Origin: a virus
Length of the DNA: 24,715 nucleotides
IMG/VR virus record: IMGVR_UViG_3300017764_000099
Coordinates: 1-24,715 of that record
Direction: 5' to 3' (one strand)
Shown here one piece after another: positions 7,162-16,020 of this stretch. The translations under genes were made by a program, and so were the position numbers. The notes under the pieces are model-generated. The model was not told where the DNA came from. It worked only from the letters and a program-made list of their open reading frames with translations, and searched no databases. The stretch's first letter is position 1; every line of letters starts with the position of its first letter.

Positions 7162-8220
7162 ATGAACAGAGACTTTTTTAAAGAGGCCATCGCTGATGCA
7201 AAAGCCGTTAAGGAATCAGCCATTGCCAATGCTAAAGCTGCTCTAGAAGAAGCATTAACTCCAGAAATCAAATCTATGCTAGCTGCGAAATTAGAAGAGA
7301 TGGAAAATGCTTACGAAGGGGAAGATGAAGCAAAAATGAAAGAAGAAGTTGAAATTTCGGAAGAAGAAGTTACCGAAGCTAAAGAAGAAGAAATCGAAGA
7401 AACAGTTACTGAAGAAGTTACTGAAGAAATCGAAGAATCTGATGTTGCAGAAGAGATGGACTTAGACGAAATTTTAGCAGAAATCGAAAAAGAGCTTGAT
7501 GAAGAAACTACTGTTGTAAACGAGGAAGAAATCGAAGAAACAGAAACTGTTACTGAGGAAGATGAAGACGAAGCTGAAGAAGCTGAGGATGAAGAAGCCG
7601 ATGTTGAAGTTGAAGATGAAGATATCGATCTTGAAGACATGACAGAAGAAGATTTAAAAGCATTTATTGAAAGTGTTATCGAAGACATGGTTGAAGCTGG
7701 TGAATTAGAAGCTGGTGAAGAAATGGAAGGTGAAGAAATGGAAGGTGAAGAAGAAATTGAAATTGAAGACGATATGTTGGATATGGGTATGGCTGAATCA
7801 ACTGAAATTGCTGAAGAAGAAATTGAAGAAGACAATACAGTATCTGAATTAAGATCTGAATTGGAAGAAGCAATTGATACTATCAAAGCACAATCCACTG
7901 AACTCAACGAAGTTAATTTGTTAAACGCTAAATTGTTGTATACAAATAAGATTTTTAAAGCAAAATCACTTACTGAATCTCAGAAAGTAAAAGTTTTAAC
8001 TGCATTTGAAAAAGCTGCTAATGTGAGCGAAGTAAAACTCGTGTTTGAAACATTAACAGAAAGTATAAATGTAAAAATGAAAAGAAAAACTGTAAATGAA
8101 GGAATTGTTGGATCTGCTTCTAAAGTAGTATCTACACCTAAAGTTGAAAAACAACCAATTGTTGAATCAAACGAAATGGTGAATAGATTCCAGAAACTTG
8201 CAGGTATTATTAAAGACTAA
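7162..8220 (+). CDS. 22: Prohead core scaffold protein (gp22-like)
   Basis: This is the internal scaffold around which the capsid assembles and which the protease later degrades. It has 352 residues, against about 269 in T4 gp22. The N-terminal 45 residues form a helical Ala/Glu/Lys segment. Residues about 50-230 are extremely acidic, with long runs of Glu and Asp and repeats such as EEMEGEEMEGEEE. The C-terminal part (about 235-352) is a coiled coil followed by SLTESQKVKVLTAFEKA, MVNRFQKLAGIIKD and similar conserved-looking segments. Position directly before the major capsid gene, high charge and coiled-coil content all fit gp22. The extra length is the acidic insert. The leader holds AGGAAA just before the ATG, one of the few purine-rich start sites here. 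The stop is 14 bases from the capsid start. Confidence 0.85.
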   Translation: MNRDFFKEAIADAKAVKESAIANAKAALEEALTPEIKSMLAAKLEEMENAYEGEDEAKMKEEVEISEEEVTEAKEEEIEETVTEEVTEEIEESDVAEEMDLDEILAEIEKELDEETTVVNEEEIEETETVTEEDEDEAEEAEDEEADVEVEDEDIDLEDMTEEDLKAFIESVIEDMVEAGELEAGEEMEGEEMEGEEEIEIEDDMLDMGMAESTEIAEEEIEEDNTVSELRSELEEAIDTIKAQSTELNEVNLLNAKLLYTNKIFKAKSLTESQKVKVLTAFEKAANVSEVKLVFETLTESINVKMKRKTVNEGIVGSASKVVSTPKVEKQPIVESNEMVNRFQKLAGIIKD

Positions 8221-8234
8221 ATTTTAGAAAAAAA

Positions 8235-9851
8235 ATGTCACAATTAAACGAATTATTAGAAACTGCTAACCCGTATAAATCACTTCAAAGTGATGCGGCT
8301 AGATTAGCAGGAAAATGGGCCAAAACAGGATTATTAGAAGGTCTTGGGTCTGAAACAGACAAGAACAATATGTCTATGATTCTTGAAAACCAAGCTAAGC
8401 AATTAGTAATGGAAGAATCAAACACCGGTGGTGGTGGAGGAAGCTTCACACCAGGAACAGGTGCTCAATGGGCAGGTGTTGCTTTACCATTAGTTAGAAA
8501 GGTATTTGGACAAATCTCTACTAAAGAGTTTGTTTCAGTTCAACCAATGAACTTACCTTCAGGACTAGTGTTTTATTTAGATTTCCAATATGGATCAACA
8601 AAAGCTCCTTTTACAGCTGCTGATTCTATGTATGGTGACCAAGGTGGAAATGCTCCATTTGGGAACGATAGTACAGGTGGTGCTTATGGTGCTGGAAGAT
8701 TTGGATACTCTATCAACAATACTTCAGCTACTACAGCTGTAGCTGCTACTGCATCTGCAGATTGGTTTGCTGATTTAAATGCTGATGGTGCTTATTCTGC
8801 TTCTGTTGCTGCTGGAGATTTAGCAGTATATTCAGTTCCAGTTTCGGCTTTAGGTGCTAATTATGATGCTGAAGCAATTAGAGGTTTCTATTTAACTTCT
8901 TCTGCTGTTTCACCTTCAGATATTTTACCTGCATTTACTAGAGTTGATGGTGCTAACATCAAATTCTTAGCTGCTAAAGATTTAGCTGTTGCTACTGATG
9001 CTGTTGATGTTGTATTCTCTTTACAACCAACTGACTCTGATAGAGGTGATTTCGAAGATGGGAACACTGCATTAAATGCTGGAAATAACCCAATCGCTAT
9101 CCCAGAGATTAACGTTCAAATGAGAAGTGAAGCAATCGTTGCTAAAACTAGAAAATTGAAAGCTGTTTGGACTCCTGAGTTCGCTCAAGATTTAAACGCT
9201 TACCATTCTTTAGATGCTGAAGCTGAGTTAACTTCAATCATGAGTGAATATATCTCATTAGAGATTGATTTAGAAGTATTAGATATGTTAATAGATTCTG
9301 CTGCTGCAGGTACTGAGTACTGGACTGCTGAGAATAATAAAGCATTAGATGGTGCTGGATTTACTAACACTAACTTAGGTTTCTACAACTCTCAAGGACA
9401 GTGGTTCCAAACTTTAGGAACTAAAATGCAGAAATTATCTAACATCATTCACCAGAAAACATTAAGAGGTGGAGCTAATTTCCTAGTATGTTCTCCAACA
9501 GTTGCTACTGTTTTAGAATCAATCCCAGGATATGCTGCAAACTCTGATGGTGATGTTACTAAACAATCTTATGCATTTGGTGTTCAGAAAGCAGGTGCTA
9601 TTAATAGCAGATATACTGTTTATAAGAACCCATACATGAAAGAAAACACTATCTTAATGGGTTATAGAGGTGGACAATTCTTGGAAGCAGGTGCTGTATT
9701 TGCTCCATATGTACCATTAATCATGACTCCATTAGTTTATGATCCAGATACTTTCACACCAAGAAAGGGATTATTAACTAGATACGCTAAGAAAGTAGTT
9801 AGACCAGAATTTTATGGTAAGATCTATGTAAGTGGATTGAATACTTTATAA
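8235..9851 (+). CDS. 23: Major capsid protein (gp23-like)
   Basis: This is the main shell protein of the head, with the HK97-type fold typical of T4 gp23. Length is 538 residues (T4: 521). Diagnostic sequences include LPLVRKVFGQISTKEFVSVQ near residue 85, RKLKAVWTPEFAQDLNAYH in the middle, and IIHQKTLRGGANFLVCSPTV near 405, a hallmark of gp23. The expected prohead-protease processing site lies near residues 57-61 (LVMEE), immediately before NTGGGGGSFTPGTGAQ; maturation would remove about 60 N-terminal residues. This position agrees with the known gp23 cleavage after residue 65 in T4. The central region near residues 140-290 is Ala-rich and less familiar, probably a surface insertion. A strong terminator follows. 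Confidence 0.95.
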   Translation: MSQLNELLETANPYKSLQSDAARLAGKWAKTGLLEGLGSETDKNNMSMILENQAKQLVMEESNTGGGGGSFTPGTGAQWAGVALPLVRKVFGQISTKEFVSVQPMNLPSGLVFYLDFQYGSTKAPFTAADSMYGDQGGNAPFGNDSTGGAYGAGRFGYSINNTSATTAVAATASADWFADLNADGAYSASVAAGDLAVYSVPVSALGANYDAEAIRGFYLTSSAVSPSDILPAFTRVDGANIKFLAAKDLAVATDAVDVVFSLQPTDSDRGDFEDGNTALNAGNNPIAIPEINVQMRSEAIVAKTRKLKAVWTPEFAQDLNAYHSLDAEAELTSIMSEYISLEIDLEVLDMLIDSAAAGTEYWTAENNKALDGAGFTNTNLGFYNSQGQWFQTLGTKMQKLSNIIHQKTLRGGANFLVCSPTVATVLESIPGYAANSDGDVTKQSYAFGVQKAGAINSRYTVYKNPYMKENTILMGYRGGQFLEAGAVFAPYVPLIMTPLVYDPDTFTPRKGLLTRYAKKVVRPEFYGKIYVSGLNTL

Positions 9852-11209: not shown

Positions 11210-13999
11210 ATGGAAAAATTATTTTTACTTATGCCTGATGGTTTATCGGGTACAAGAATTGATTTGGATAGCCAATCTAGCAAAAAACTAACAAATGCTG
11301 AGATTATTAGTCCAACAGGAATTACAAAAGAAGATCTACCAGAATTAGTTGAGAACTTAGCTGAGTTATCTAAGGCTGACAAAGACTTAGGTAAAAGGAT
11401 TGATGAGGTACTTCACAACATTGACCCTGAAGCTTTAGATTCATTAACTGAGATTGTAGCTGCTTTCACATCTGCGGATGATGACTTAAATGCAACAATA
11501 TTAGACTTAGTGAAAACTGTTAGAGGTGAATTTGCTGCTGCTGATGATGCTATTAAAGCTGAAGTTGGATACGAAAGTAGAGGTTCAATTTCTAATGATC
11601 TTTATGGAGATTATTCAGATGCTGCTGAACCAGTTTTAGCAATTGAAGAGGAATTAGTAGAAGCTCAAGAAGAAAGAGCTACTTACGAAGCAGAATTAGC
11701 AAAACTTGAAAACGATGGGGCTGACCAAGCTGTAATTGAGAAGAAAGAGGCTGATATTGAGGGAGCAAATAAAAGACTTGCTGAATTAAAGTCTAATTTA
11801 AAGGATTTTGATTTCCCATTCTTACCTAAAAATGAAGTTAACTTTATTGCATGGGCTGATGCTCAACACAATGAAGATCATTCATCTGCAAGAGAAGCAC
11901 TTGCTAATATTGTTGGTGATAATAAAGATGCTTCTGAGAATGCTGATGCTGCAATTATTACTGCTGTTGGGTATGATGCCAGAGGTACATCTTCTGGTAA
12001 TAAGTATGCAGAGTATATTAATGAAGCAACAAATGCTGAACAAATTCAATCAGAAATTGATTCAATTAATGAGACTTTAGCTCAAATGCAAAAAGAATTA
12101 GCGGATGCAGAAGATAATGATGCACCTGCTGAACATATTGCTAGTATTGAAGCTAACATTGCAGCTGAAAATAAAGTAAAAGCTGAAAGAGAAGATTCTT
12201 TAGAATCTATTTCAGGTTTCTTACCTGCAAATGAAGTTAACTTTATTGCATGGGCTGATAGTAAAACAGCTGATGATATTAAGGATAACTTAGGTCAAAT
12301 TGGTCAAGATATTTTCGCTACTAATGAAGCTTTAGCAGCTGGTGATGCCGTTGTTGTTGCTGCTGTTGGATATGATGACAGAGGTAATTTCTCTGAAGCA
12401 GAATATACATCTTACAAGAGTGAAATGGCAGTAGGTGAACAACTTCAAATGCAAATTGATGAAATTGATGCTAATTTAGCTCAATTACAAAAAGAATTAG
12501 CAGATGCTGATCCTGAGGATGCTGAACATATTGATAATATTGAAGCTAACATTGCAGCTGAAAATAAATCAAAATCTGAATTTCAAGCTGAATTAGAATC
12601 TTATTCATCATTCTTACCTAAAAATGAAGTTAACTTCATTGCATGGTTAGAAGATAAATCAAGAAAATTAGTTTCTTCTGTTGATGAATCACTTAACTCT
12701 AAGATAAAAGAAGAAAAAGCTGCTTCTGATAAAGCTGATGCTGCAATTATTACTGCTGTTGGATATCAAGATAGAGGTGAGAAATCTAAAGCTAGACATG
12801 CTGAGTATGAAGCTGCTGCAAATACTTATGATCCTCAAGATCTAGAAGATGCTGGAGAATATGTAGATGAGGCTGAAGCAGAAAGAGACAATGTTCAAGC
12901 TGCATTAGATAAAGCTATTAAGGATGGTGCTGATCAAACTCAGATAGATAAAATTCAAGCTGATCTTGATGCTGCTAATGAGGAACTTGATTCTGCTAAT
13001 GCTGAAATGGAGAATGCTATAGCTTCTGCTAATGCAATTGTACCTTTCATACCAGTAAATGAAGTTAACTTCATTGCATGGGCTGATGCTCAAGATAAGG
13101 CTGGATTAGAGGGTACTATTAAATCTACAGATAGAAAATTATCTGATAGAATTGATTTCATAGTTAAAAATTCTGAACCTGAAGCTTTAGATTCATTAAC
13201 TGAAATCGTAGCTGCTTTCCAATCTTCTGATAGCGACTTAAGTAATGCTTTCAATGAGATAGCTAAGAATATTAGAAGTGAATTTGCTGCTGCTGATACA
13301 AAGGTTAGAGATGAGTTTGCTACTGCTGACACTGCTTTAAGTTCTTCTTTCGCAGGTGCTTTAACTACTGAAGCTTCTGATATTAGAGGAGAGTTTGCTA
13401 CTGCTGACACTGCTTTAAGTTCTTCTTTCGCTGCTGATTTAGCTACTGAGGTTACTAGAGCTGAAGATGAAGAAGGAAAAATTAGAACTGAGTTTGCTAC
13501 TGCTGACACTGCTTTAAGTTCTTCTTTCGCTACTGATTTATCTACTGAAATACAAGCTAGAATAGATGGGGATAATGCTTTAGATGATAAGATATCTGCT
13601 ATTATTACTAATGATTATGGAGATGCTTTAGATTCATTCTCTGAAGTTGAAGAAGGTGTTAATACTGGATTTATAGCATTGAAACAAATGATCATGGACG
13701 TAGCTGCTGGATCTGTTGAAAAAGTACTTTCTTCTCCAGTATCTGATGGTGTTGAAGTTAACTATACTGTTTCAACTGAGAAACCAAAAGTATTCGTTAA
13801 TGGTATGCTTCAAGTAGAAGCTGTTGATTATACAGTTGCTGCTGGTTCTCCAGATGCAGATGGACATGCAACAATGGTAGTTACTTTCGGTACTGCTCCA
13901 GTTAGTGGTGCTCAGTTAGTTATTGCTGGTGTTGAATCTAAGCATACTTCAGGGTATGATGCTCCTGTAGTATTTGGAGATAGTGGTCCTCAATCATAA
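11210..13999 (+). CDS. Repetitive fibre-like structural protein with four NEVNFIAW modules
   Basis: This 929-residue acidic, Ala-rich protein is dominated by coiled coil. After a short N-terminal domain (1-70) comes PEALDSLTEIVAAF...FAAAD (about 80-115). Four modules follow. Each starts with a VGYxxRG motif (about residues 119, 252, 385, 516), passes through a long helical hairpin, and ends in F(L/I)PxNEVNFIAW (about 204, 340, 471, 617). The EALDSLTEIVAAF...FAAAD segment then recurs near 655-700, so the four modules sit between two copies of one sequence. Next are three copies of EFATADTALSSSFA (about 702-775) and a C-terminal beta domain with KVFVNGMLQVEAVDYTV. That domain resembles the C-terminus of the gp15-like protein. 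It is most likely a head or tail fibre or whisker-like trimeric protein; which one is unclear. It has its own leader and terminator. Confidence 0.75.
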   Translation: MEKLFLLMPDGLSGTRIDLDSQSSKKLTNAEIISPTGITKEDLPELVENLAELSKADKDLGKRIDEVLHNIDPEALDSLTEIVAAFTSADDDLNATILDLVKTVRGEFAAADDAIKAEVGYESRGSISNDLYGDYSDAAEPVLAIEEELVEAQEERATYEAELAKLENDGADQAVIEKKEADIEGANKRLAELKSNLKDFDFPFLPKNEVNFIAWADAQHNEDHSSAREALANIVGDNKDASENADAAIITAVGYDARGTSSGNKYAEYINEATNAEQIQSEIDSINETLAQMQKELADAEDNDAPAEHIASIEANIAAENKVKAEREDSLESISGFLPANEVNFIAWADSKTADDIKDNLGQIGQDIFATNEALAAGDAVVVAAVGYDDRGNFSEAEYTSYKSEMAVGEQLQMQIDEIDANLAQLQKELADADPEDAEHIDNIEANIAAENKSKSEFQAELESYSSFLPKNEVNFIAWLEDKSRKLVSSVDESLNSKIKEEKAASDKADAAIITAVGYQDRGEKSKARHAEYEAAANTYDPQDLEDAGEYVDEAEAERDNVQAALDKAIKDGADQTQIDKIQADLDAANEELDSANAEMENAIASANAIVPFIPVNEVNFIAWADAQDKAGLEGTIKSTDRKLSDRIDFIVKNSEPEALDSLTEIVAAFQSSDSDLSNAFNEIAKNIRSEFAAADTKVRDEFATADTALSSSFAGALTTEASDIRGEFATADTALSSSFAADLATEVTRAEDEEGKIRTEFATADTALSSSFATDLSTEIQARIDGDNALDDKISAIITNDYGDALDSFSEVEEGVNTGFIALKQMIMDVAAGSVEKVLSSPVSDGVEVNYTVSTEKPKVFVNGMLQVEAVDYTVAAGSPDADGHATMVVTFGTAPVSGAQLVIAGVESKHTSGYDAPVVFGDSGPQS
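13313..13530 (+). repeat. Three identical 41-bp direct repeats in the fibre gene
   Basis: Copies at 13313-13353, 13391-13431 and 13490-13530 encode EFATADTALSSSFA. They appear identical at DNA level, with spacings of 78 and 99 bases (both multiples of three). Unequal recombination could change the length of the coiled coil without a frameshift. Confidence 0.85.
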
Positions 14000-14097: not shown

Positions 14098-14820
14098 TTA
14101 TTTTTTCCAACGTATATTAAGGCTATCGGCTGCAAACTTACAACCAACTAAACCACCAAATAACATTAATATCATTATGCTATATGCAGCATTTTCACTT
14201 GCCATTAAACTATAATTCCATAACCCGTGATATAAAATACCACAACTAACTCCCATAACCGAGTAAATAAAAGTTTTAAATCGAGGATATCTATTAGTAA
14301 ACATATTGAAGATAGAACGACTGAATTTAGCAGATCTAATTTGACCTAACGCAAACCAATATCCAGCTAACAAACCAAATATCATATGAGATAAAGTAGA
14401 AGTTACTTGTCTTATGATTAATGTTTCATGTCCATATTTCTGCAGATAACTTATATTTTCAATCATAGCAAAACCCAGACCAACCATACCACAATAGAAC
14501 ATATTTCCTATAGGATGATTGTCTTCATCTTTTTTACTAATAAACCAAATACCTAAAAATGCTAAAAATTTAGCAATTTCTTCTCTAGGCGCAACTTCTA
14601 AAAACCAATAATCAATCCCTGGTTTTATAAATAAAAATTGAGGTTCATAAGGAAACCCAACTGTAATTATTCTATGAAAGCTAATTGAAATAACACCCCC
14701 AATTAGATATCGAACAGCTGTTTTGAGATTAATTGATTTAAATGGTGATGTCCAGTATATGATTAAAACATACAGTACTGGAGGTAACACCACTAATAAT
14801 AATAATTCTAAAGGATCCAT
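14098..14820 (-). CDS. PrsW-like intramembrane protease
   Basis: This 240-residue multi-pass membrane protein has about seven or eight hydrophobic segments. Its four motifs match the PrsW family of glutamic intramembrane proteases (related to CPBP/Abi proteins): EE-x-x-K at Glu80-Glu81-Lys84 (PREEIAKFLAF), F-x-x-x-E at Phe118-Glu122 region (GLGFAMIENISY, Glu121), His145 in LSHMIFG, and H-x-x-x-N at His198-Asn202 (LYHGLWN). In bacteria PrsW cleaves the membrane anti-sigma factor RsiW, and relatives process other membrane proteins. The gene is the second of a minus-strand pair, six bases after the methyltransferase stop, and ends at the shared terminator. In a phage it could cleave a host membrane protein or defend the infected cell from superinfection, but no target is visible. 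There is no cleavable signal peptide; the first helix begins at residue 5. Confidence 0.82.
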   Translation of the reverse strand: MDPLELLLLVVLPPVLYVLIIYWTSPFKSINLKTAVRYLIGGVISISFHRIITVGFPYEPQFLFIKPGIDYWFLEVAPREEIAKFLAFLGIWFISKKDEDNHPIGNMFYCGMVGLGFAMIENISYLQKYGHETLIIRQVTSTLSHMIFGLLAGYWFALGQIRSAKFSRSIFNMFTNRYPRFKTFIYSVMGVSCGILYHGLWNYSLMASENAAYSIMILMLFGGLVGCKFAADSLNIRWKK

Positions 14821-14826
14821 AATTTT

Positions 14827-16020
14827 TTATTTTATTAAGTAAAATATATTTATTTTGTTGTAACTAGTTTTAAATTTTTTATCTTTCAATTCATTCACTC
14901 TATCATCTCTCCTTAAAGGTTTCCGTCTACATATAAATAAACAACCCTCGGGTAATATATCAATAATCATTTTTGATAATTCTGCGTCATACATTGTATT
15001 ATCACAATAAACTACTGTAGCATCGCTAACATCACAATTAAGAAAAGACTCGTGAATATAACTAATGTTATCCATATCTTTACAATATGTTTCTTTAATA
15101 TAGTTAGCACCTTTCATTCTTTCTTTCGATAATTCAATACCACAAGATTTTTTAGGACTATATTGTAAACCTATATGAGCTACCATTTTTCCTAACCCAC
15201 ACCCTAAATCATAAAATACTGTATTTTCATCAAAATAGTCTTTAAATTCATCTACTATTCCATTTGTAGATATTTGAGTTACTTCCCCATAAATTGAATA
15301 TTCTTCTCTATCAAATTTTGTTTTATTTCCATATTGTCCAAAAGAATTTATTTTATAGATTTTTTCTAAGATTTTATTTAAGTTTTCCATTGTTTTTCCT
15401 GTTTTTTTATTTAAATCAGGAAATTTTTTATTTACGTAAGTATTCATTATTTTTTCTTGCATCTCTTCATTTCCCTCTGCTTTATACCACAACCATAACC
15501 ATGAAGTCTCTTTTCCTTTAACTTCATCCTGTTTTTCCTTAATTAGTTGTTTTATAAATTCTATTTCATCCTCCCCCAAATCAACATCTATATTAATTTG
15601 TTGGGCAACAAATGCGAGCTGAACTATGTTATTTTCTTCATATGCTTCTTTAGCCAAAACATAGAAATGAACTAAATCCTCAGAATTAACTTTATCAGGA
15701 TGTGTTTTTTTCATTATCTCACGAAACATTGTTTTTAACCGTTTTTTAGTCTCATCAGATAATAAATCATCCTCTATCTTTTTTTTGATAGGTTTTTTCT
15801 CTTTCGGTTTAGATTCTTTTCTATCCTTATCTTTAATATCCTCTTTAGATTTTTTTTCCTCCTCTTTTTCACTAACTTTACTAGTTTTTTCTAGAAAAGA
15901 TTCCATGAATTGAGGTTGATATTCATCTATAATTTCATCTTTCAATTCTTCATCTGTTAAAAGATAACTATATTCTAACAATAACTTCTTTATTTCTAAT
16001 TGTTTAAGTTTATCTCCCAT
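14827..16020 (-). CDS. J-domain protein fused to DOT1-like methyltransferase
   Basis: This 397-residue protein has three parts. Residues 1-45 are helical and 46-85 form a highly charged Lys/Glu linker. Residues about 90-165 look like a J-domain: KRLKTMFREIMKKTHPDKVN holds the HPD tripeptide (107-109) that in DnaJ proteins stimulates Hsp70/DnaK, and a following helix resembles the J-domain third helix (VLAKEAYEENN). Residues about 240-397 form a class I SAM-dependent methyltransferase: YGE (244-246), motif I VFYDLGCGLGK (268-278), the acidic residue after strand 2 in CGIELSKERMKGA (Glu296), and VVYCDNTMYDAEL (336-348). The YGE, DLG-G-GK, GIE and 'NN-F'-like series recalls DOT1-type lysine methyltransferases. 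The substrate is unknown. It is the first gene of the minus-strand cassette. Confidence 0.7.
   Translation of the reverse strand: MGDKLKQLEIKKLLLEYSYLLTDEELKDEIIDEYQPQFMESFLEKTSKVSEKEEEKKSKEDIKDKDRKESKPKEKKPIKKKIEDDLLSDETKKRLKTMFREIMKKTHPDKVNSEDLVHFYVLAKEAYEENNIVQLAFVAQQINIDVDLGEDEIEFIKQLIKEKQDEVKGKETSWLWLWYKAEGNEEMQEKIMNTYVNKKFPDLNKKTGKTMENLNKILEKIYKINSFGQYGNKTKFDREEYSIYGEVTQISTNGIVDEFKDYFDENTVFYDLGCGLGKMVAHIGLQYSPKKSCGIELSKERMKGANYIKETYCKDMDNISYIHESFLNCDVSDATVVYCDNTMYDAELSKMIIDILPEGCLFICRRKPLRRDDRVNELKDKKFKTSYNKINIFYLIK

Follow-up and report, generated by a model that had tools for sequence, protein, structure and literature searches.

Does a virus encode one protein in which a J-domain-like region is joined to a DOT1-like methyltransferase, and if so, what could such a protein do? 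The question is raised by a gene in the 24,715-base virus contig analysed here at its full length (hereafter the window). A single minus-strand ORF of 397 codons, with its ATG at 16020 and its stop at 14827, spans the whole finding; the plus strand of the same stretch contains many stops in the one frame translated, and the longest plus-strand ORF listed within it encodes 75 aa (15294-15521). All the motifs cited in the first-pass annotation are present in the 397-aa product: HPD (residues 107-109), YGE (244-246), DLGCGLGK (271-278), GIE (294-296) and YCDNTMY (338-344). The features discussed below are as follows:

14827-16020, minus strand: J-DOT1 fusion gene, an ORF of 397 aa with full-length relatives in L006/L007 (45%/44% identity)
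15850-16020, minus strand: long N-terminal helix (residues 1-57), starting with KLKxLEIKKLL, which is also conserved in stand-alone J proteins
15421-15756, minus strand: core of the J module (residues 89-200), comprising a helix, the HPD loop, a helix, further helices and a W-rich tail
15694-15702, minus strand: HPD tripeptide (residues 107-109), kept in 32/33 distinct J segments
15388-15390, minus strand: internal ATG (Met211) at the position where the stand-alone DOT1 gene of L047 has its start codon, preceded by AGGA 6 nt upstream
14830-15390, minus strand: DOT1-like methyltransferase domain (residues 211-397), assigned from Pfam, fold and profile matches
15283-15291, minus strand: YGE motif (residues 244-246; Y244 in 36/37, G245 in 36/37 and E246 in 37/37 distinct DOT1 segments)
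15187-15210, minus strand: motif I, DLGCGLGK (residues 271-278; D271, G273, G275, G277 and K278 in 37/37)
15133-15141, minus strand: motif II, GIE (residues 294-296; G294 in 37/37, E296 in 36/37)
14989-15009, minus strand: YCDNTMY motif (residues 338-344) at the position of VNNFAF in DOT1L, with N341 in 21/37 only
14098-14820, minus strand: PrsW-family intramembrane protease, 240 aa, directly downstream of the fusion gene; a relative also adjoins DOT1 in L047/L048 and L090
16237-17385, plus strand: head-tail adaptor homologue (neck protein), divergent from the fusion gene and 54% identical to the counterpart adjoining the J-only gene of L042

Misassembly and a frameshift are rejected as explanations: two contigs from two metagenomes (L006 and L007; loci named in pairs are near-copies and are counted once) carry the same fusion, and each half of the window protein matches a whole gene elsewhere. 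The joining of both parts in one protein, as originally annotated, is therefore real, lies in a tailed phage and recurs in a second phage lineage. Its supposed phage origin is likewise borne out by the surrounding genes, which make up a block of T4-type structural genes (terminase end, portal, prohead protease, major capsid protein and neck): the portal and the major capsid protein are 61% and 59% identical to those of Flavobacterium phage immuto, the top match among 2457 and 2496 matching records, respectively. The fusion gene and the PrsW gene are oriented opposite to these structural genes. The cassette is adjoined at 11210-13999 by a gene for a 929-aa protein. It has four direct repeats, spaced about 400 nt from one another and with AVGY..RG and NEVNFIAW in their units, as well as three shorter repeats; this is perhaps a fibre or coiled structural protein. 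A late promoter was considered for the fusion gene, with TATAAATA 205 nt and CATAAATA 91 nt upstream, and was dropped, the AT-rich window containing 21 NATAAATA sites.

The C-terminal half had been proposed to be a DOT1-type methyltransferase (residues 240-397), and both sequence and fold place it in the DOT1/aKMT group. Residues 242-378 match Pfam DOT1 (PF08123) well above the curated cut-off (48.5 bits against 23, E-value 1e-12), and the class I fold and the YGE, DxGxGxG and GxE motifs in DOT1 order are all present. A profile of nine phage rows reported as its top matches the bacterial DOT1L 9ne1 (1.5e-20), aKMT 5fa8 (6.5e-14) and DOT1L (6.7e-14). The AlphaFold2 model (mean pLDDT 82.2) has its nearest folds in the same 9ne1 and 5fa8 (Z 18.0 to both), with yeast Dot1 reaching Z 16.4 and DOT1L Z 16.1; other class I enzymes are close behind the nearest folds, namely 5bxy (titled RNA methyltransferase, Z 16.9) and the aminobutyrate transferase CntL (Z 15.5). 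As there is no large Z gap between DOT1/aKMT and other class I enzymes, the fold alone is not decisive, and it is the sequence profile that points to DOT1 and aKMT as the probable family of this half. The catalytic-loop Asn (N341) is not general in the phage family. The sole NCBIfam match of the window protein is the archaeal protein-lysine methyltransferase NF041081, at 43.5 bits far below the cut-off of 200, and the closest PHROGs family is phrog_4752, named tRNA methyltransferase (29.9 bits).

Scans of viral contigs with the single window protein or with the DOT1 part alone retrieved no relative; alignment queries, unlike these single-sequence scans, recovered them. A tblastn search of 50,697 phage records with the DOT1 part gave no match at E <= 1, and a single genome scan for bacterial relatives gave four distant loci (27-36% identity). 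The window protein matches none of the PADLOC defence-system models, and residues 42-164 of the L047 DOT1 protein match PADLOC mad2. Further phage DOT1-like proteins (L097, L098, L103-L107 and L012) lie in a common neighbourhood of NusG-like, dCMP-deaminase-like, exonuclease-like and thioesterase-like ORFs, named by eye from sequence.

The N-terminal half had been described as J-domain-like (residues 90-165), a description that holds for the arrangement of helix, HPD and helix and for a sequence signature of the J type; no canonical first helix is seen in the models. In the AlphaFold2 model the HPD tripeptide lies in the loop between helices 89-106 and 114-128, and a model of the J module (130 aa, pLDDT 90.4) has the same succession of helix, HPD loop and helix. 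The window protein scores 18.3 bits against Pfam DnaJ (PF00226; E-value 0.0025), below the cut-off of 27.8, in a match that begins at model position 10-11 of 63; nevertheless, 25/26 aligned members of the J family match this model at E <= 0.05, and one relative, the J protein of L082, passes the cut-off (27.9 bits). The family profile identified the Ydj1 J domain as the top PDB match (E-value 3e-5), and its 47 PDB sequences at E <= 1 include one clear non-J protein, the PCI-domain protein 8amz_R. The structural comparison did not favour J domains: a Foldseek search with the J module reported no match at E <= 0.001, and in the fold search the J-domain chains among the matches listed have Z 3.4-4.2, against up to Z 6.0 for designed three-helix bundles. 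A match this weak, in which J domains are not distinguished from designed bundles of helices, signals neither a relation nor its absence. Because HPD is kept and the profile matches are of the J type, yet the score is low and no canonical helix I is seen, we call residues 1-205 a divergent J module. A J-module protein encoded in L060 (5776-6324) has HSD instead of HPD.

Most of the relatives found are stand-alone versions of this module. A tblastn search with residues 94-193 as the matching part led to two phages of huge genome size (635 and 642 kb); the proteins concerned (218 and 223 aa) align over their entire length with window residues 1-205, and a third huge phage (636 kb) was reached via these two. 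With a six-sequence query that included the huge-phage relatives, the viral-contig scan yielded 38 loci, near-copies included: two are fused to DOT1, two are cut by the contig end and 34 are stand-alone (174-251 aa). Window residues 1-205 have full-length stand-alone counterparts in Bacteroidetes-type phages and in huge phages. Each of the six J-module records larger than 250 kb that were put to an HSP70 search (G034 and G037, also of this size, were left out of it) encodes its own HSP70; these amount to about five distinct phages, since L005 and L062 carry the same J protein. The full-length HSP70 genes are in LR745206, LR756502, LR756504, G001, G029 and G033. A second DnaJ-like match occurs in frames of 351-362 aa in LR756502, G001 and G019.

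The last 187 residues of the window protein correspond to the entire product of a separate phage DOT1 gene, and the linker behind the J part is about ten residues long. For its DOT1 segment, the L047 record gives the highest identity (57%). As the DOT1 protein of L047 starts at window Met211, the window protein looks like two whole genes set end to end. The internal ATG and its upstream AGGA (15388-15400, minus strand) might allow a free DOT1 domain to arise from the fused gene. The gene orders observed are:

Window: J-DOT1 fusion followed by PrsW
L006/L007: J-DOT1 fusion followed by a second class I methyltransferase (DOT1-related) and an ATP-grasp-like ORF
L043/L044: J and DOT1 separated by 3 bp and followed by a relative of the second methyltransferase of L006/L007 and another ATP-grasp-like ORF
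L047/L048: J, PrsW, DOT1
L082/L083: DOT1, small ORF, J
L090: PrsW and DOT1, without J

The pair is thus fused in the window and in a second lineage. In three further lineages the two genes are on the same strand and at most 0.9 kb from each other, and in two they are far apart (about 83 kb in G001 and about 18 kb in G040). A crude estimate, computed after seeing the data, of the chance that at least three of five unfused lineages would have the genes so close on one strand is 4e-6. Among the 37 DOT1 loci, eight have a J module within the fetched stretch. At the level of whole records, DOT1 scores over the cut-off in 5/35 J records searched, many of them fragments (30/35 without), and the J module is found in 7/34 DOT1 records, a count that leaves out the near-copies L076, L078 and L080 (27/34 without; an eighth record, G064, has only a short DnaJ-like match). 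Most J records being without DOT1 and most DOT1 records without J, neither part needs the other; the neighbouring genes in some related viruses suggest that the two parts work together. The codon differences between L010 and L011 (one synonymous and one not in the J part, five and six in the DOT1 part) are too few to judge selection.

The history of the fusion was read from trees of both parts. The DOT1 tree groups the window with the unfused L075, from the same record as L047 (support 97/90), and the fused L077/L078 with the unfused L079 at weaker support (83/59), so that supported branches force two changes of fused state; the J tree likewise forces two changes, with the placement of the window itself unsupported. 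Two fusions are the simplest account, although a fusion with later splitting may also explain the trees. The J protein of L047 groups with those of the J-only loci L034 and L050 (99/99), in which the gene directly behind J is the counterpart of the one located after PrsW-DOT1 in L047, and L042 carries a J gene alone at the syntenic position of the window, beside the 54% identical neck protein. From these J-only loci the J gene appears to be the older resident, next to which DOT1, either by itself or together with PrsW, seems to have been acquired on more than one occasion.

The window PrsW gene passes the cut-off of Pfam PF13367 (78.7 bits against 23.5), scores below that of the NCBIfam equivalog NF033739 (50.6 against 225), and is 50% identical to the PrsW of L047. 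The second methyltransferases fall just below the DOT1 cut-off (21.5 and 18.9 bits against 23), and the ATP-grasp-like ORFs fall below every ATP-grasp cut-off, with a weak match of the L043 ORF to R2K_2 (13.3 bits, cut-off 26.2). These ORFs directly follow J/DOT1 in L043 (7200-8579) and L006 (6171-7683), and it is possible that they constitute a protein-modifying cassette. R2K-clade ATP-grasp enzymes in phages are proposed to be modifiers of host proteins in a paper that also discusses the descent of DOT1-like methyltransferases from effector systems (PMC4431377). Just after DOT1, L047 has a 281-aa ORF (7980-8825) that matches the alanyl-tRNA synthetase family PF01411 (74.8 bits), and relatives of this ORF directly follow J in L034 and L050.

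Both modules, their conserved motifs, the recurrent fusion and the close linkage are established at the sequence level. As to function, our leading explanation, to which we give somewhat less than an even chance, is that the product of the fusion gene would be a chaperone-guided protein methyltransferase that acts on Hsp70 or its clients. Residues 1-205 would serve as a class III J-type adaptor, the HPD hairpin of which would dock on Hsp70, either the host DnaK or, where present, the phage DnaK; the DOT1/aKMT-type domain would bind S-adenosylmethionine and methylate, probably on lysines, the protein held there. Either DnaK or one of its clients could be the substrate, with a host regulator or a structural protein of the phage as the likeliest client, and the phage might benefit from a chaperone reprogrammed or blunted during infection. 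We propose J-guided lysine methylation because some J-module phages encode HSP70, because a phage J protein (Rki) is known to engage DnaK, because jumbo-phage surveys point in the same direction and because human chaperone methyltransferases exist. In its favour we count the DOT1 match in sequence and fold, the near-invariant motifs of the SAM site, the conservation of HPD, the J profile, the L082 protein that passes the DnaJ cut-off, the linkage and the two forced changes of fused state; against it we count the low J score, the apparent lack of the first J helix, the ranking of designed bundles above J domains, the many unpaired J and DOT1 records, the distant genes of G001 and G040, the patchy conservation of N341 and the name of phrog_4752. 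A broader version of this explanation seems to us possible and rather doubtful: that phages repeatedly assembled a chaperone-guided methylation machine, in which the J module would bring the enzyme to host DnaK, so that its DOT1-type domain could methylate DnaK or the protein DnaK holds, with PrsW, the second class I methyltransferase and the ATP-grasp-like ligase as further enzymes of the cassette in some phages.

The fusion may instead be incidental, the J part serving virion assembly by bringing DnaK to structural proteins, while DOT1 and PrsW are mobile cargo with a job of their own that the fusion merely co-expresses. L042, with its J gene alone at the position of the window, and L034 and L050, J-only relatives of L047 that lack the PrsW-DOT1 insertion, fit such a history; the DOT1 and J parts of L047 group differently in the trees, the one with the window and the other with J-only phages, which argues that the cargo moves, and the internal ATG could yield a free DOT1. 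We nevertheless regard this explanation as unlikely, as cargo beside J in three unfused lineages, in addition to two fusions, is hard to explain by chance.

Two further explanations, each of which we consider improbable, concern one half of the protein only. The J-like module could be a helical scaffold with a retained HPD turn that, instead of binding Hsp70, directs the methyltransferase to some other protein of the phage or the host; its apparent lack of the first helix, the fold search that did not single out J domains, the HSD of L060, and the conserved W-rich tail and long N-terminal helix, which extend beyond any J domain, are all compatible with such a role. However, HPD is retained in all but one of the distinct J segments, the sequence-profile matches are almost only J domains, and Rki, a functional phage J protein, also scores below the Pfam cut-off. 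For the C-terminal domain, the DOT1 likeness could reflect the class I fold shared with enzymes that methylate RNA or a small molecule, as the tRNA methyltransferase name of phrog_4752 and the closeness of 5bxy and CntL in fold would allow; against this, the best sequence families are DOT1 and the archaeal protein-lysine methyltransferase, and the top folds are DOT1 and aKMT.

The architecture may be new: in agreement with the first-pass annotation, searches of an open-access library yielded no account of a protein that combines a J module with a DOT1-type enzyme, a scope that most subscription papers and preprints fall outside. The fusion appears to be built from known parts, and the evidence for their linkage is good as far as sequence comparison goes. 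Little is understood of either the J proteins or the DOT1-like enzymes of phages, and the joined protein, together with the neighbouring pairs in some phages, hints at what the DOT1-like enzymes methylate and what the J proteins fetch. If DnaK or its clients were methylated during infection, this would be a new viral way to take over the chaperone, by modification of Hsp70 or of its client pool with a J module as substrate guide. Such a takeover would act near the point of chaperone-dependent phage sensing by bNACHT25, which is reported to need DnaJ (PMC12169576).

Among known systems, Rki (RB43 ORF057w) is reported as a phage J protein that engages DnaK and alters its function (PMC3486835). 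Like the window protein, it is a phage-encoded J protein with HPD, described from T4-type phages, and its relatives in RB16 and KP15 are described as fused to the next gene, as the window J module is fused (PMC3486835). Scored as a control for a functional phage J protein, Rki falls below the Pfam DnaJ cut-off like the window protein (25.4 bits; KP15 fusion, 20.9), although its J domain is N-terminal and matches profile positions 4-55, and thus retains more of helix I. Neither the RB43 058w protein nor the KP15 fusion has a Pfam methyltransferase match. The best BLASTP piece between Rki and the window protein covers 28 residues around HPD (E-value 0.008) and the profile comparison 27 columns (probability 5), so that homology beyond the HPD region is not supported.

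DOT1/DOT1L and the bacterial DOT1L 9ne1 share with the window protein the class I fold and the YGE, DxGxGxG and GxE motifs in the same order, at an identity of 25% to 9ne1 and 15-21% to other DOT1 rows; the window protein differs in being of phage origin, and the catalytic-loop Asn of DOT1L is not general in phages. In eukaryotes DOT1 and DOT1L methylate histone H3K79, a residue that, to our knowledge, bacteria lack. DOT1 homologues have been described in bacteria, archaea and viruses, with repeated transfer (PMC10117894). The archaeal aKMT (5fa8, 5jwj; NF041081) resembles the window protein in its fold and as its only NCBIfam match, but its chains of about 160 residues leave no room for a J module, and the window protein is far below the family cut-off.

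For the proposed combination of activities, jumbo-phage surveys mention DnaJ proteins and suggest that they recruit host HSP70 (PMC7824862, PMC12619734), and human methyltransferases that prefer chaperones are reported to methylate Hsp70 and VCP (PMC3547847). The likeness to the METTL21 group, to which the Hsp70 enzyme METTL21A belongs, lies in the proposed function, and the group is eukaryotic, unlike the phage protein; in what it is described to do, it is the closest functional precedent for a chaperone-directed methyltransferase such as we propose for the phage.
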